Shown here: positions 5,993-56,474 of the stretch, piece by piece
Position numbering within the stretch: position 1 is the stretch's first letter
Layout of the letters: each line of letters begins with the position of its first letter
From: Kineosporia sp. NBRC 101731
Lineage (GTDB): Bacteria; Actinomycetota; Actinomycetes; Actinomycetales; Kineosporiaceae
NCBI RefSeq assembly: GCF_030269305.1
Contig: NZ_BSTC01000001.1
Location: forward strand, 1 to 64,000
Direction: 5' to 3'
Length of the DNA stretch: 64,000 bases
The notes under the pieces: model-generated
Databases searched by the model: none
What the model was told of the DNA's origin: nothing
The model's input: the letters and a program-made list of their open reading frames with translations, nothing else
Program-made: the position numbers and the translations under genes

Positions 5993-6077
5993 CCGTGATC
6001 ATGCAAATCCTCCCCGGCGTTCTAGAACTCTCCGGACCACAGTTCTAGAACTCCGGGGAGGTTTTGCATGATCACGG
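5993..6077. repeat. Long palindromic intergenic element, copy 1
   Basis: An 85-bp inverted repeat between two symporter operons. The outer arms run from CCGTGATCATGC into CCTCCCCGG and back out through CCGGGGAGG to GCATGATCACGG. Inside are two copies of the palindrome GTTCTAGAAC (6019-6028 and 6042-6051). Closely related copies are at 44179-44262, 49547-49659 and 56301-56384. It could act as a bidirectional terminator after the upstream symporter, but it also occurs between divergent genes, so that is not its only setting. Confidence 0.9.
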
Positions 6078-6234: not shown

Positions 6235-6287
6235 AGTGGGCGCGCATCTGCGCAATCGACGCGTACCGAGTCATGTGAGGAGCTGTG

Positions 6288-8281: not shown

Positions 8282-9025
8282 TCAGCCGAAACGCCAGGTG
8301 TGCGTGACCTCTGAGGTGCGGCGGTCGGTCACGATCCGCAACCGCTCGTCGAGGATCGTGGCCGTGTCCACCACGTAGGCCCGGCCCGTTCCGTCGAAGG
8401 TCGTCCGGCGCATCACCAGCGCCGGGCGGCCTTCTGCGGTCGAGGTGAGCCCGGCCAGACCGGCGGTCAGGGCCTCGGCGGTGAGGGCTTCCTCGGCCCG
8501 TTCGGGGTGGGTGCCGGTGGCCTCGCCGATCGCGCCGTAGAGCGGGGTGACCCGGAAGTCGACCTCCGCGATCGCCTCGGCCCACGGCTGCGGCACCCAG
8601 GAGATCTGGTGCAGCAACGGGATTCCGCGGACCGACCGCAGCCGCTCCAGCCGCAGGGCGGGTGCCTCGGCGGGCATGCCCAATTCGATCGCCACCTCGC
8701 GCGGCAGCTTGCCGGTCTGCACATCGAGCACCTCGGTGCGCAGCGGCACTCCCTGGGTGTTCAGCTCGTCGGCGAGGCTGCGCAGGTTGGCCTGGTCGTG
8801 GGCGACCTCGGGGGGAACCACGAAGGTGCCCCGCCCGGCCCTCTGCTCGATCAGCCCGTCGTCTTGCAGCGCCTTCAGTGCCTGACGCAGAGTCATCAGG
8901 GTCACGCTGTACTCGTCGCTCAGGACGCGCTGCGGGGGTAGGGCGCCATCAGCACCGAAATCCCCGGCGCGAATCCGCTCGGCCAGTGCGTCGGCGATCC
9001 GGCGGTACTTCGGTTCAACTGCCAC
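8282..9025 (-). CDS. GntR-family (HutC/UTRA) transcriptional regulator
   Basis: A 247-residue regulator with an N-terminal GntR winged helix (about 5-70; LPPQRVLSDEYSVTLMTLRQALKALQ) and a C-terminal UTRA ligand-binding domain (about 90-240). It is the third gene after trpB and trpA on the same strand, 9 nt after the trpA stop, so it is probably co-transcribed with them. HutC-type GntR proteins bind palindromes of the GTnTAnAC kind, and two perfect copies of AGAGTTCTAGAACTCT overlap the trpB promoter. I infer that this protein represses its own operon there. The ligand is unknown. Confidence 0.9.
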   Translation of the reverse strand: MAVEPKYRRIADALAERIRAGDFGADGALPPQRVLSDEYSVTLMTLRQALKALQDDGLIEQRAGRGTFVVPPEVAHDQANLRSLADELNTQGVPLRTEVLDVQTGKLPREVAIELGMPAEAPALRLERLRSVRGIPLLHQISWVPQPWAEAIAEVDFRVTPLYGAIGEATGTHPERAEEALTAEALTAGLAGLTSTAEGRPALVMRRTTFDGTGRAYVVDTATILDERLRIVTDRRTSEVTHTWRFG

Positions 9026-9034
9026 ACCCTCAGA

Positions 9035-9850
9035 TTAGGGCCAATGCGGCTCGACGATCGCGTCCAGGGCCGTGCGCACCTCCCGCACCAGGCCGGCCAC
9101 CTCGTCCGCGTTCTCGCCCGCCAGCACCCGGCGCATCACGGCGGCTCCCATGATCACACCGTCCGCATGCCGGGCCGCCTGTGCCGCGGTCTCCGGTCCG
9201 GAGATGCCGAAACCCATCAGCACCGGCCGGTCGGTGGCCGCCCGCACCCGGGTGGCCAGGTCGGCCGCCTGGTCACCGAGCACGATGCGCTCACCGGTGG
9301 TTCCCATGACGGTGGACGCGTACACGAACCCGGATCCCAGGCGCGCGATCGCGTCGATGCGGTCGGGTGGAGTGGAAGGTGCCACGATCAGCACGGTCTC
9401 GATCCCCTGCGACCGGGCGGCGGCGACCAGGGGCGAGGCCTCGTCCAGCGGGGTGTCGACGGGGATCAGCCCGGACACCCCGGCGCCGGCCAGACGTTCG
9501 CAGAACACCCCGGCCCCGCGGTGCCGGATCAGATTGCTGTAGGTCATGACGACCAGCGGGATGTCGAGGTCCAGCTCCGCCACCGCCGCCAGCGCCCGCT
9601 CGGTGGTCATCCCCTGCTCCAGCGCCCGTTGTGAGGCCTCCTGGATGGTCGTGCCCTCGAGCATCGGGTCGGAGAAGGGCAATCCGATCTCGATCGCGTC
9701 GGCCCCGGCCGCGGCCAGCGCCTCGACCAGCCCGGTCCAGCCGGGCACCACTCCGGCGGTGACATAGGGCACGAGAGCCTTGCGGCCCTGGTCACGGTGG
9801 TCGCGGAGGTGTCGTTCCAAGGGTGGACGCCCGACCGTCACGGTGGTCAT
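9035..9850 (-). CDS. trpA: Tryptophan synthase alpha chain, unusual active-site residue
   Basis: A 271-residue TIM barrel that would cleave indole-3-glycerol phosphate to indole and glyceraldehyde 3-phosphate. The catalytic Glu (E. coli Glu49) is Glu54 in IEIGLPFSDP, but the position of the catalytic Asp60 is Glu65 (MLEGTTIQ instead of the usual DGPTIQ). The phosphate-binding GFGISGPE is present. The ATG at 9850 overlaps the trpB stop by 4 bp (ATGA); a longer frame reading upstream through trpB is a shadow. Indole made here would normally pass to the beta subunit. Activity on the standard substrate is not certain given the substitution. Confidence 0.9.
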   Translation of the reverse strand: MTTVTVGRPPLERHLRDHRDQGRKALVPYVTAGVVPGWTGLVEALAAAGADAIEIGLPFSDPMLEGTTIQEASQRALEQGMTTERALAAVAELDLDIPLVVMTYSNLIRHRGAGVFCERLAGAGVSGLIPVDTPLDEASPLVAAARSQGIETVLIVAPSTPPDRIDAIARLGSGFVYASTVMGTTGERIVLGDQAADLATRVRAATDRPVLMGFGISGPETAAQAARHADGVIMGAAVMRRVLAGENADEVAGLVREVRTALDAIVEPHWP

Positions 9851-11028
9851 GCGAGCAGCTCCCTCACCTGGGCGGCGTCTTTGTCGCCGCGGCCGGACAG
9901 GGTCACCAGCACCGTTGACCCGGTGGGCAGCTCGTCGGTACCGGCGGCACGCAGCACCCAGGCCACGGCGTGGCAGCTCTCCAGGGCACCGAGAATGCCC
10001 TCGGTGCGCGCCAGTTTGACCATCGCGGCCAGCACCTCGTCGTCGTCGGCGCTGACGTAGGTGGCGCGGCCGGAGTCGGCGAGATGAGCATGCTCCGGGC
10101 CGACACCGGGATAGTCCAGGCCGGCCGAGAGCGAGTGCGCCTCCAGCACCTGCCCGTCGTCGTCCTGCAGCAGGTAGGACTCGAAGCCGTGCAGGATGCC
10201 GGGCGAACCGTTGCCGATCGCGGCCCCACCGGCCGCCTCCACGCCGACCAGCCGGGCGGAGGTGCCGACGAACCCGGCGAAGGTGCCCGCCGCGTTCGAG
10301 CCACCGCCCACACAGGCGACCACGACGTCCGGAATTCCGGCCGGCAGCAGCTGCGCGCACTGCCCCCGCGCCTCTTCGCCGATGACCCGCTGGAACTCCC
10401 GCACCATCCACGGGTACGGATGCGGACCCATCACCGAACCGATGCAGTAGTGCGCGGTGTCGGACTGCCCCACCCAGTGCCGGAACGCCTCGCTGGTGGC
10501 GTCGGCGAGCGTCTGGCTGCCCGCCGTCACCGGCACCACCTTCGCGCCGAGCAGCTCCATCCGGAACACATTGAGCGCCTGCCGCTCGACGTCTTTCGCG
10601 CCCATGAACACTGTGACATCGAGCCCGAGCAGTGCCCCGACGGTGGCGGTGGCCACGCCGTGCTGCCCGGCCCCGGTCTCGGCGAGCAGGGTGGTGCGGC
10701 CCATGCGCTGAGCCAGAAGCGCTTGCCCCAGAACGTTATTGATCTTGTGTGAGCCGGTGTGGGCGAGATCTTCGCGCTTCAGCAGCACGGTGACCCCGAG
10801 CTCGGCGGAGAGCCGGGCGGCGGGCGTGACCGGTGTGGGGCGCCCGGCGTACACGGCGAGCGTGCGGGTCAGATGCTCACGGAACGCCGAATCCGACCAG
10901 GCGGAACGAAACTCGCGCTCGAGGGTGCGACAGGCCGGGATCAGCGCCTCGGGTACGTAACGACCACCGAAGGCGCCGAACCGGCCGTCGGCGCCGGGAT
11001 CGGCCAGGACGGATGCGGTCTGCGTCAT
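9847..11028 (-). CDS. trpB: Tryptophan synthase beta chain
   Basis: A 393-residue PLP enzyme condensing indole with serine. The Schiff-base lysine is Lys95 in HTGSHKINN, the catalytic Glu is in AETGAGQHG, the phosphate loop is GGGSNAAG and the conserved SAGLDYPGVGPEHA is intact, so this is an ordinary TrpB1. There is no trpE, trpD, trpC or trpF nearby; the pair stands alone with a GntR gene behind it. That suggests either a split tryptophan pathway or a second copy with its own control. The ATG lies 6 nt after a good -10 box, so the mRNA is probably leaderless. Confidence 0.95.
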   Translation of the reverse strand: MTQTASVLADPGADGRFGAFGGRYVPEALIPACRTLEREFRSAWSDSAFREHLTRTLAVYAGRPTPVTPAARLSAELGVTVLLKREDLAHTGSHKINNVLGQALLAQRMGRTTLLAETGAGQHGVATATVGALLGLDVTVFMGAKDVERQALNVFRMELLGAKVVPVTAGSQTLADATSEAFRHWVGQSDTAHYCIGSVMGPHPYPWMVREFQRVIGEEARGQCAQLLPAGIPDVVVACVGGGSNAAGTFAGFVGTSARLVGVEAAGGAAIGNGSPGILHGFESYLLQDDDGQVLEAHSLSAGLDYPGVGPEHAHLADSGRATYVSADDDEVLAAMVKLARTEGILGALESCHAVAWVLRAAGTDELPTGSTVLVTLSGRGDKDAAQVRELLA

Positions 11029-11034
11029 GCCTTG

Positions 11035-11063
11035 ACCGTAAGAGTTCTAGAACTCTCCGTCAA
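11035..11063 (-). promoter_or_regulatory. trpBA-gntR promoter
   Basis: Read on the minus strand: -35 TTGACG (11058-11063), a 17-bp spacer (11041-11057), -10 TACGGT (11035-11040), then 6 nt and the trpB ATG. The spacing is ideal for a housekeeping sigma factor and implies transcription starting at or next to the start codon. The spacer is almost entirely the palindrome AGAGTTCTAGAACTCT. Confidence 0.75.
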
Positions 11064-11078
11064 GAGTTCTAGAACTCT
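11041..11078. promoter_or_regulatory. Tandem TTCTAGAA operators at the trpB promoter
   Basis: Two perfect 16-bp palindromes AGAGTTCTAGAACTCT at 11041-11056 and 11063-11078, with centres exactly 22 bp apart, about two helical turns. The first fills the promoter spacer and the second touches the -35 box, so a dimeric repressor bound at both would block RNA polymerase. The core GTTCTAGAAC resembles known HutC-subfamily GntR sites such as the DasR site. The GntR protein encoded at the end of this operon is the natural candidate. Confidence 0.7.
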
Positions 11079-11257: not shown

Positions 11258-11665
11258 GTGGTGAGCACCATGAGCTCGATGACCATCCTGCCGGTCGCGA
11301 ACCAGCACCTCACGGCCAGCAGTTATGCCCCCGTGCTGCAGCACAACAGCCGTACTGACCTGCGGGCCCTGGTGAAGTCGGAGGCCACCTCGGACACGGC
11401 CCGTCAGCTGGCCGGAGCGGTGCAGACCCGTGTCGGCGTCGAGGCCGCGACCGCGGTGCTGGCCACGAACACGGAGAACCGCGCCCGGCAGTACGAGGAA
11501 CGCTCGACCACGAGCACCGTCACGGCCCGGCGGAGCACCACCAGCGCGGGTGCGGGCAGCGCCGGCGAGACGGCCGGCTCACCGGAGTCCGACACCGGGG
11601 CCGCCCCGGGACAGGCCCGTCCGGACCCGTCCCAGCTCGGCGCCGTGATCGACCTCTACCTGTAG
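11258..11665 (+). CDS. Hypothetical protein, Ser/Thr-rich tail
   Basis: A 135-residue protein that I do not recognise. The first 75 residues look folded (an Ala-rich helix around DTARQLAGAVQTRVGVEAATAVLATNTENRARQ), followed by a low-complexity Ser/Thr/Gly/Ala tail and a short conserved-looking end, LGAVIDLYL. No signal peptide or membrane segment is visible. Starts at GTG 11258, ATG 11270 or ATG 11279 are all possible. It is convergent with the ECF sigma factor gene. A short AT-richer stretch just upstream may hold its promoter. Confidence 0.6.
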   Translation: MVSTMSSMTILPVANQHLTASSYAPVLQHNSRTDLRALVKSEATSDTARQLAGAVQTRVGVEAATAVLATNTENRARQYEERSTTSTVTARRSTTSAGAGSAGETAGSPESDTGAAPGQARPDPSQLGAVIDLYL

Positions 11666-44178: not shown

Positions 44179-44262
44179 CGTGATCATGCAAGACCTCCCC
44201 GGAGTTCTAGAACTCATCGCGCGGTGAGTTCCAGAACGCTGGGGAGGTCTTGCATGATCACG
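44179..44262. repeat. Long palindromic intergenic element, copy 2
   Basis: Same design as copy 1: CGTGATCATGCAAG at one end and CTTGCATGATCACG at the other, CCTCCCC/GGGGAGG next, then GTTCTAGAAC on one side and GTTCCAGAAC on the other. It lies between the convergent pckG and lipoprotein genes and may act as a two-way terminator. Arm changes relative to the other copies are compensated on the opposite side. Confidence 0.9.
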
Positions 44263-49546: not shown

Positions 49547-49659
49547 CCGTGATCATGCAAATCCCCCAGCCTTCGGCCGGGAGGTGCCCCCACTCCCCAG
49601 AGTTCTAGAACTCCGTCACCCACAGTTCTAGAACGCCGGGGAGGTTTTGCATGATCACG
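49547..49659. repeat. Long palindromic intergenic element, copy 3, with nested repeat
   Basis: Outer arms CCGTGATCATGCAAA and TTTTGCATGATCACG, two GTTCTAGAAC cores, as in the other copies, but the left arm is interrupted by about 30 bp (49568-49597) containing CCTTCGGCCGGGAGGTGCC. It lies between convergent genes (LCP2 and an acyl-CoA ligase), followed by TTTTTT. Confidence 0.88.
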
Positions 49660-56213: not shown

Positions 56214-56300
56214 GATCCCACCCCCCTCGCCATCCGAGTCCCACCCCCTCTTCCCCCTTCCTCCCCCCTTCTTGCCCCCCTTCTTGCCCCCCTTCTTTCT
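56214..56300. other. Pyrimidine-rich tract upstream of zwf
   Basis: About 85 bp with almost only C and T on the plus strand, including two copies of TTCTTGCCCCCC and runs of five or six C. On the zwf strand this is a G/A-rich tract covering its 5' region. Such tracts can form H-DNA or slip. No motif with known function is seen. Confidence 0.75.
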
Positions 56301-56384
56301 CCGTGATCATGCAAAACCTCCCCGGAGTTCTAGAACAGTCGACGCAAGAGTTCTAGAACGCCGGGGAGGTTTTGCATGATCACG
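56301..56384. repeat. Long palindromic intergenic element, copy 4
   Basis: CCGTGATCATGCAAAA to TTTTGCATGATCACG with CCTCCCCGG/CCGGGGAGG and two GTTCTAGAAC cores around a 12-nt loop. This is the cleanest copy. It lies between divergent genes (zwf and DUF1275), so it cannot be simply a terminator. Confidence 0.92.
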
Positions 56385-56474
56385 AGATAGGAAAGCGCCG
56401 ACGTCTCATAAATTGGATCCAATCTTTACCTGATTGAACCCAACGACACGCTCGCGCCGGGATACGGTCCAGAG

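Follow-up and report, generated by a model that had tools for sequence, protein, structure and literature searches.

What do two identical palindromes do in the promoter of a tryptophan synthase operon, and does the regulator gene at the far end of that operon act on them? The question arises at a locus in the window, by which we mean the whole stretch of 64,000 nucleotides from Kineosporia sp. NBRC 101731 that was analyzed here. A first-pass annotation, made from the letters of this DNA, had proposed that a ligand-responsive GntR protein binds the palindromes and represses its own operon. Here, we compare the locus with its counterparts in the genus and across the class, and we weigh this proposal against other readings.

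Genes and promoter of the locus

Three genes run in a row on the minus strand: trpB (9847 to 11028), trpA (9035 to 9850), and gntR (8282 to 9025). The coordinates bear out this order, as do the Pfam matches of the products (PALP for TrpB, PF00290 for TrpA, and GntR plus UTRA for the regulator). TrpB and TrpA also score above the cut-offs of TIGR00263 (529 versus 392.45) and TIGR00262 (208 versus 102.35), by which trpBA is predicted to encode a genuine tryptophan synthase and not a TrpB-like enzyme. The same genome has another trpB, which is 59% identical to that of the locus and is flanked by frames resembling trpC and trpA (translations read by eye). Because of this other trpB and its flanks, we regard the trpBA of the locus as a second copy, with a non-canonical trpB.

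The regulator combines an N-terminal GntR winged helix (PF00392; 64.4 bits, cut-off 27) with a C-terminal UTRA domain (PF07702; 85.9 bits, cut-off 23.8), the architecture of the HutC subfamily. It scores below the curated NCBIfam cut-offs for HutC itself (TIGR02018; 97.2 versus 220), PhnF (80.7 versus 156.8), PhnR (95.8 versus 296.75), and TreR (64.2 versus 211.95).

Upstream of trpB, the minus strand reads as a promoter: TTGACG as the −35 box (11058 to 11063), a spacer of 17 nucleotides, TACGGT as the −10 box (11035 to 11040), and then six nucleotides (CAAGGC) before the ATG at 11028. Given the six nucleotides between the −10 box and the ATG, the trpB mRNA is probably leaderless. Two exact copies of the palindrome AGAGTTCTAGAACTCT, with centers 22 bp apart, lie within this sequence and are treated here as candidate operators. 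The upstream copy (11063 to 11078) overlaps the −35 box by one base, and the downstream copy (11041 to 11056) occupies 16 of the 17 bases of the spacer. The first-pass annotation had described the promoter, the palindrome in its spacer with a second copy touching the −35 box, and a HutC/UTRA GntR as third gene of the row; on direct reading, promoter and palindromes proved exact to the base, and both domains of the regulator were confirmed.

The 16-mer AGAGTTCTAGAACTCT has 10 matches with up to three mismatches in the window, against 0.02 expected from dinucleotide shuffles. The trpB pair accounts for two of these, and the other eight form four pairs within a dispersed hairpin repeat that is discussed below. 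At a spacing of 22 bp and with up to three mismatches, the trpB promoter is the sole place in the whole genome with such a pair.

Divergent from trpB lies a gene of 135 amino acids (11258 to 11665), which is fast-evolving (33 to 85% identity within the genus) and has no match in Pfam or NCBIfam.

Conservation within the genus

The genus set comprised six genomes, G000 (the window species) to G005. A search of each genome for GTTCTAGAAC-12-GTTCTAGAAC with up to three mismatches finds the pair exactly once in five of the six, always before trpB, and finds no match in G003. In four of the five, the promoter boxes are kept with it: TTGAC and TACGGT are present in G000, G001, G004, and G005, while G002 has TTGCGC and TAGGGT. 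An exact scan for GTTCTAKAAC-12-GTTCTAGAAC in a named collection, which by its own description covers 84,980 species and possibly leaves out the window's own genome, returned three records, all of them Kineosporia (K. mesophila, K. rhizophila, and K. babensis).

Orthologs of gntR (80 to 96% identity) occur in all five other genus members, with varying gene orders. The gene follows trpA in G000, G002, and G004. A block comprising the symporter genes and gntR is inverted in G001 and G005, placing gntR ~7 kb from trpB on the opposite strand. In G003, trpBA is gone from the locus and gntR (85% identical) stays; a decayed trpB promoter (GTTCCAGAAC, TTGACG; L105) remains ~500 bp upstream of gntR, and the 16-kb region around gntR holds no intact palindrome pair. 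The trpB of G003 (72%) lies with trpA elsewhere in the genome and has one imperfect palindrome, GTTCTAGAAG. From these gene orders and sites across the genus, we conclude that the operator travels with trpBA. The GntR of G003, kept with no intact pair nearby, may have other targets.

At the end of trpA, the hexamer TAATCT (9032 to 9037, minus strand) overlaps the stop codon and lies six bases before the gntR start, as a possible −10 box of a separate leaderless promoter. Five of the six genus members, including the three in which trpA is not upstream (G001, G003, and G005), have it equally far from the start of gntR; G004 has TAGGGT in its place. This suggests that gntR has a leaderless promoter of its own. 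The autorepression inferred by the first-pass annotation needs a correction here. Autorepression through the operon is possible where gntR follows trpA, and its generality within the genus is contradicted by the promoter-like TAATCT, by the inversion in two relatives, and by the loss of trpBA in a third.

Linkage of regulator and motif across the class

We searched 394 genomes of the class, a number that includes the window's own genome; the counts of 13 given below do not. Thirteen genomes have a GntR homolog of 38 to 47% identity by tblastn, and the remaining homologs listed reach at most 34% in the tblastn search and up to 35% in a second search. All 13 homologs are linked to trpBA. Ten are arranged as trpB-trpA-gntR on one strand (G072, G109, G182, G202, G211, G305, G321, G351, G359, and G412), and three are divergent from trpBA (G093, G162, and G248). 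The clade of the second trpB (69 to 75% identity) comprises 11 class genomes besides the window's, all of which are among these 13. In G162 and G248, gntR is paired with a trpB of 54% identity; gntR thus accompanies two trpB lineages.

Related palindromes lie upstream of these trpB genes. In eight genomes, two GTTATAGAAC-type sites stand at a distance of 20 bp (in G359, one site with a mismatch), G321 has two copies of GTTCTAGAAC 17 bp apart, and G202 has one. The three divergent loci have GTTCTAGAAG or CTTCTAGAAG. Within 300 bp upstream of trpB, the core TTMTAKAA is present at 19 of 19 trp loci and at none of 26 control loci. First-order shuffles predict 0.01 exact occurrences of the longer GTTMTAKAAC and 0.1 with up to one mismatch, whereas 15 and 17 of the 19 loci, respectively, have one; among the controls, 0 of 26 do in either case. 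The 19 loci are the 13 of the class and the six of the genus, including the unlinked trpB of G003; the controls are the 18 best-scoring trpB genes outside the clade, drawn from a trpB search with a match in 359 of the 394 genomes, and eight canonical or family-level trpB genes from another search.

The first-pass annotation had pointed to related genomes as the place where operon and palindromes should recur together, and to operons that keep the regulator and lack both palindromes as evidence to the contrary. Linkage and motif coincide at all 13 class-level loci, and no operon of the contrary kind is found among them.

Seven regions outside the genus were also compared with the proteins of the window. 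Six have trpBA beside gntR. The exception, G401 (L212), has a GntR of 33% identity (with Lys33 and Val43) ~3.4 kb from a trpB of 55 to 56% identity; AAAACTAGTTTT lies upstream of this trpB, and the TTCTAGAA motif was not found in that upstream region.

Covariation of regulator residues and operator bases

In the structure of NagR from Bacillus subtilis bound to DNA, Arg38 reads G−5, Arg48 reads G−4, and Gly69 of the wing contacts G−7 (PMC4333415). The window GntR aligns with Arg33, Leu43, and Gly64 at these three positions. We tabulated operator bases by hand, taking the best site or pair per locus and excluding further CTAG-bearing partial matches in G093, G162, and G248.

Position 43 is Leu, Met, or Val in 19 of 19 trp-type GntR proteins, and 65 of 66 half-sites have T at −4. 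Of the 20 other homologs that were readable (from 22 loci tabulated), 19 have Arg at position 43, and that of G401 has Val. Sixteen of the 19 trp-type proteins have Arg at position 33. In the 15 Arg33 genomes with trpBA at the same locus, G−5 is present in 58 of 58 half-sites. The unlinked site of G003 has G at −5 in one half-site and C in the other, though its GntR also has Arg33. Where position 33 is Ala (G093), G−5 is lost in one half-site, and where it is Gln (G162 and G248), in both. All 19 proteins keep Gly64. At the level of these alignments, operator and GntR covary, and where G−4 is lost, the Arg predicted to read that base is lost as well. Because the genomes are related, few independent changes underlie this covariation.

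The motif itself differs from what had been expected. HutC-subfamily operators follow the consensus NyGTMTAKACNy, with exceptions such as FarR and NagQ, according to a comparative study (PMC4494728). The center TMTAKA of that consensus is identical in the trp-type operator, whereas GT and AC stand four bases apart in GTMTAKAC and six apart in GTTMTAKAAC, which has T at −4. The GTnTAnAC-type palindrome named by the first-pass annotation therefore has to be corrected, and the typical GTMTAKAC, which does not define the subfamily, is absent at trpB.

A candidate double operator and its alternatives

The sites lie in a promoter-like setting, are unique at their spacing, recur with the regulator across families, and covary with its residues. 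The proposal that a UTRA-type GntR controls trpBA through the palindromes is supported by the linkage (13 of 13), by the controls (0 of 26), and by the residue-base covariation. We thus consider it very probable that the palindromes are a double operator of the GntR/UTRA regulator encoded at the same locus, which would repress trpBA until a ligand releases it. One GntR dimer would bind between the −35 and −10 boxes, and a second at the −35 box, about two turns upstream on the same face of the DNA. RNA polymerase would be excluded and trpBA repressed, together with whatever part of gntR transcription starts at the trpB promoter. A small molecule bound to the UTRA domain would then release GntR and relieve trpBA; a metabolite of the tryptophan pathway is the obvious guess. 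What we infer from the sequences is that GntR binds the sites directly, that it represses and does not activate, that the dimers cooperate, and that a ligand exists.

If this is true, actinomycetes have a group of GntR/UTRA repressors dedicated to tryptophan synthase. The shifted operator code would follow from two residues, which can be checked by mutation.

Acting through the pair, GntR might instead activate transcription or regulate it both ways, and not simply repress it. The sequence is compatible with this, and in the divergent loci the site lies far from trpB (at −198 in G093). In the window, however, one palindrome fills the spacer between the −35 and −10 boxes, where a palindrome normally blocks RNA polymerase. 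We consider activation unlikely.

Alternatively, the pair could serve another regulator encoded elsewhere, with gntR as a passenger that has other targets, for example, the sodium:solute symporter genes. These genes are convergent with gntR and adjacent to it in all six genus members examined, and G003 keeps gntR with neither an adjacent trpBA nor an intact pair nearby. Outside the genus, however, none of the seven regions compared has a symporter match, while six have trpBA beside gntR. The decayed trpB promoter of G003 fits a loss of trpBA, candidate operators accompany gntR at 13 of 13 loci across families, and the covariation falls on exactly the positions with which GntR is predicted to read DNA. 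A separate regulator is therefore, in our judgment, quite improbable.

That the trpB palindromes are a truncated copy of the hairpin repeat with no regulatory role is highly improbable: many repeats of the window species and G002 do contain a near-identical pair 23 bp apart, but the trpB pair is also present where repeats with an exact pair are not (G001, G004, and G005), so that the trpB site is independent of the repeats, and it is spaced by 22 and not 23 bp, conserved in its position in the promoter, and devoid of outer-arm remnants by eye in six upstream regions.

Two further candidates were rejected. A large promoter regulon does not fit, since all 98 exact 23-bp pairs examined lie between called genes, all but one of them carry an outer arm of the hairpin repeat, and the 22-bp spacing is found only at trpB. 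A resemblance of GTTCTAGAAC to heat-shock elements was set aside, the literature on this motif, as sampled, being mostly eukaryotic and irrelevant here.

Comparison with known systems

The best matches among solved structures are NagR (YvoA) of B. subtilis and DasR of Streptomyces coelicolor, GntR proteins of the HutC subfamily with the same two-domain architecture. Their operators are likewise TA-centered palindromes. The equivalents of Arg38, with G−5, and of the wing Gly69 are kept here. In contrast, Arg48 is replaced by Leu, Met, or Val and G−4 by T, and the trp-type site at our locus consists of two full palindromes 22 bp apart. The targets also differ: trpBA here, and amino-sugar genes in the case of NagR and DasR.

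TrpI of Pseudomonas is a known regulator of trpBA. To our knowledge, TrpI, TrpR, and YtgR belong to other protein families, and none is a GntR/UTRA protein. They share with the present case either linkage of the regulator's own gene to trpBA or an operator in the promoter of trpBA. TrpR and YtgR regulate trpRBA of Chlamydia (PMC7755916). The first-pass annotation had known of no GntR control of trpBA, and in agreement with this we found no report of GntR control of trpBA or tryptophan synthase among open-access PMC titles and abstract openings. The word tryptophan is likewise absent from the main text of the HutC comparative study of 16 orthologous groups (PMC4494728).

A dispersed hairpin repeat with operator-like pairs

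The four other pairs in the window belong to copies of a hairpin repeat. The copy at 5994 to 6076 has an inner operator-like pair spaced by 23 bp, that at 44179 to 44262 has an imperfect inner pair spaced by 24 bp, that at 49548 to 49659 has a second hairpin nested in one arm, and the last lies at 56302 to 56384. Folded as RNA (positions 56300 to 56386), this last copy forms an outer stem of 24 pairs and an inner stem of 12, with a minimum free energy of −65.2 kcal/mol and a z score of −15.2. This was the one copy folded. A bidirectional intrinsic terminator would combine a stable hairpin with a following T-run where genes end; T-runs stand beside some of the copies inspected, and the repeats are biased toward the 3′ ends of genes.

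Across the genome of the window species, GTTCTAGAAC occurs 188 times. G000 has 68 exact pairs with a 13-bp spacer, that is, with centers 23 bp apart, and G002 has 74; none was found in the other 56 relatives searched. When up to two mismatches are allowed, G000 gives 88 matches on the forward strand and 86 on the reverse; most elements appear in both counts. The pairs sit within a hairpin with arms CGTGATCATGCAAAACCTCCCC. Arm matches with up to two mismatches number 118 and 109 on the two strands in G000, 151 and 141 in G002, one in G004, and zero in the other 10 genomes of the arm search. Some copies consist of the arms alone, with no inner pair; conversely, a plain outer arm stands on at least one side in 97 of the 98 pairs examined.

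In the 75 of 98 copies that have both plain arms, the outer 22 columns contain 20 matched changes (2.55 expected), and the three inner columns contain 10 (20 expected). This covariation fits hairpin pairing, be it from selection on RNA, template-switch repair, or shared descent of subfamilies. The second small hairpin, CCCCCAGCCTTCGGCCGGGAGGTGCCCCCA, that is nested in one arm of the copy at 49548 to 49659 is likewise nested in other copies (e.g., L006, L010, L012, and L025).

Repeat context was determined with a home-made gene caller for 98 copies, comprising all 68 of G000 and 30 of the 74 of G002. Every copy lies between genes. In G000, 30 copies lie between convergent genes, 29 between tandem genes, and 8 between divergent ones, with 1 unassigned. 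As raw counts, 25 of 29 tandem copies in G000 and 14 of 16 in G002 lie nearer the 3′ end of the upstream gene. The copy at 5994 to 6076 precedes a gene of 115 amino acids at 6285, which may encode a DUF485 protein, and this site is empty of the repeat in G001, G003, G004, and G005.

The center of the repeat is a 7-bp core that is near-random between copies. Among 40 ortholog pairs between G000 and G002, matched by their flanks, the core has the same orientation in 29, looks inverted in 7 (one weakly), and is unclear in 4. Core identity in the best orientation is 0.736 in ortholog pairs versus 0.413 in random pairs. We considered whether the varied cores arose by decay of one ancestral core: they are near-random between copies but similar in orthologs, with 7 of 40 inverted-looking. 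Examples of core/flank inversion are L147/L052, L136/L262, and L143/L045. The inner flanks TCT and ACA (best orientation) occur in 39 of the 68 copies of G000 and in 10 of the 30 of G002, and they are also those of the trpB pair of G004.

REP/REPIN-type elements are short extragenic hairpins that occur in many copies near the 3′ ends of genes. The present repeat resembles them in all of these respects, and it differs in its operator-like pair and its near-random 7-bp core. Spread by a Y1 transposase in the manner of REPINs is not supported, as neither G000 nor G002 has a PF01797 (RAYT/Y1 transposase) match at an E value of 0.001; among the six genus genomes, one, G005, has a match.

Because relatives that lack exact element pairs have the trpB pair, we think that the repeat acquired the operator and not the reverse. 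It is conceivable, though doubtful, that this happened in an ancestor of the window species and G002, and that the double operator then spread with the hairpin to dozens of intergenic sites, most of them close to the 3′ ends of genes. These sites could soak up the regulator like a sponge and so reset the control of trpBA, or they could give the regulator a roadblock or folding role at gene ends. If so, a one-target repressor would face a genome-wide array of high-affinity sites, the 188 palindromes in the genome of the window species. With the dispersed pairs, a local regulator would be confronted with more than 100 extra palindromes in a natural setting, and close relatives without the pairs could serve as controls.

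One further locus, L165, has two half-repeats ~1 kb apart (contig positions 1543699 and 1544765), as though an insertion had broken a copy apart at its core.
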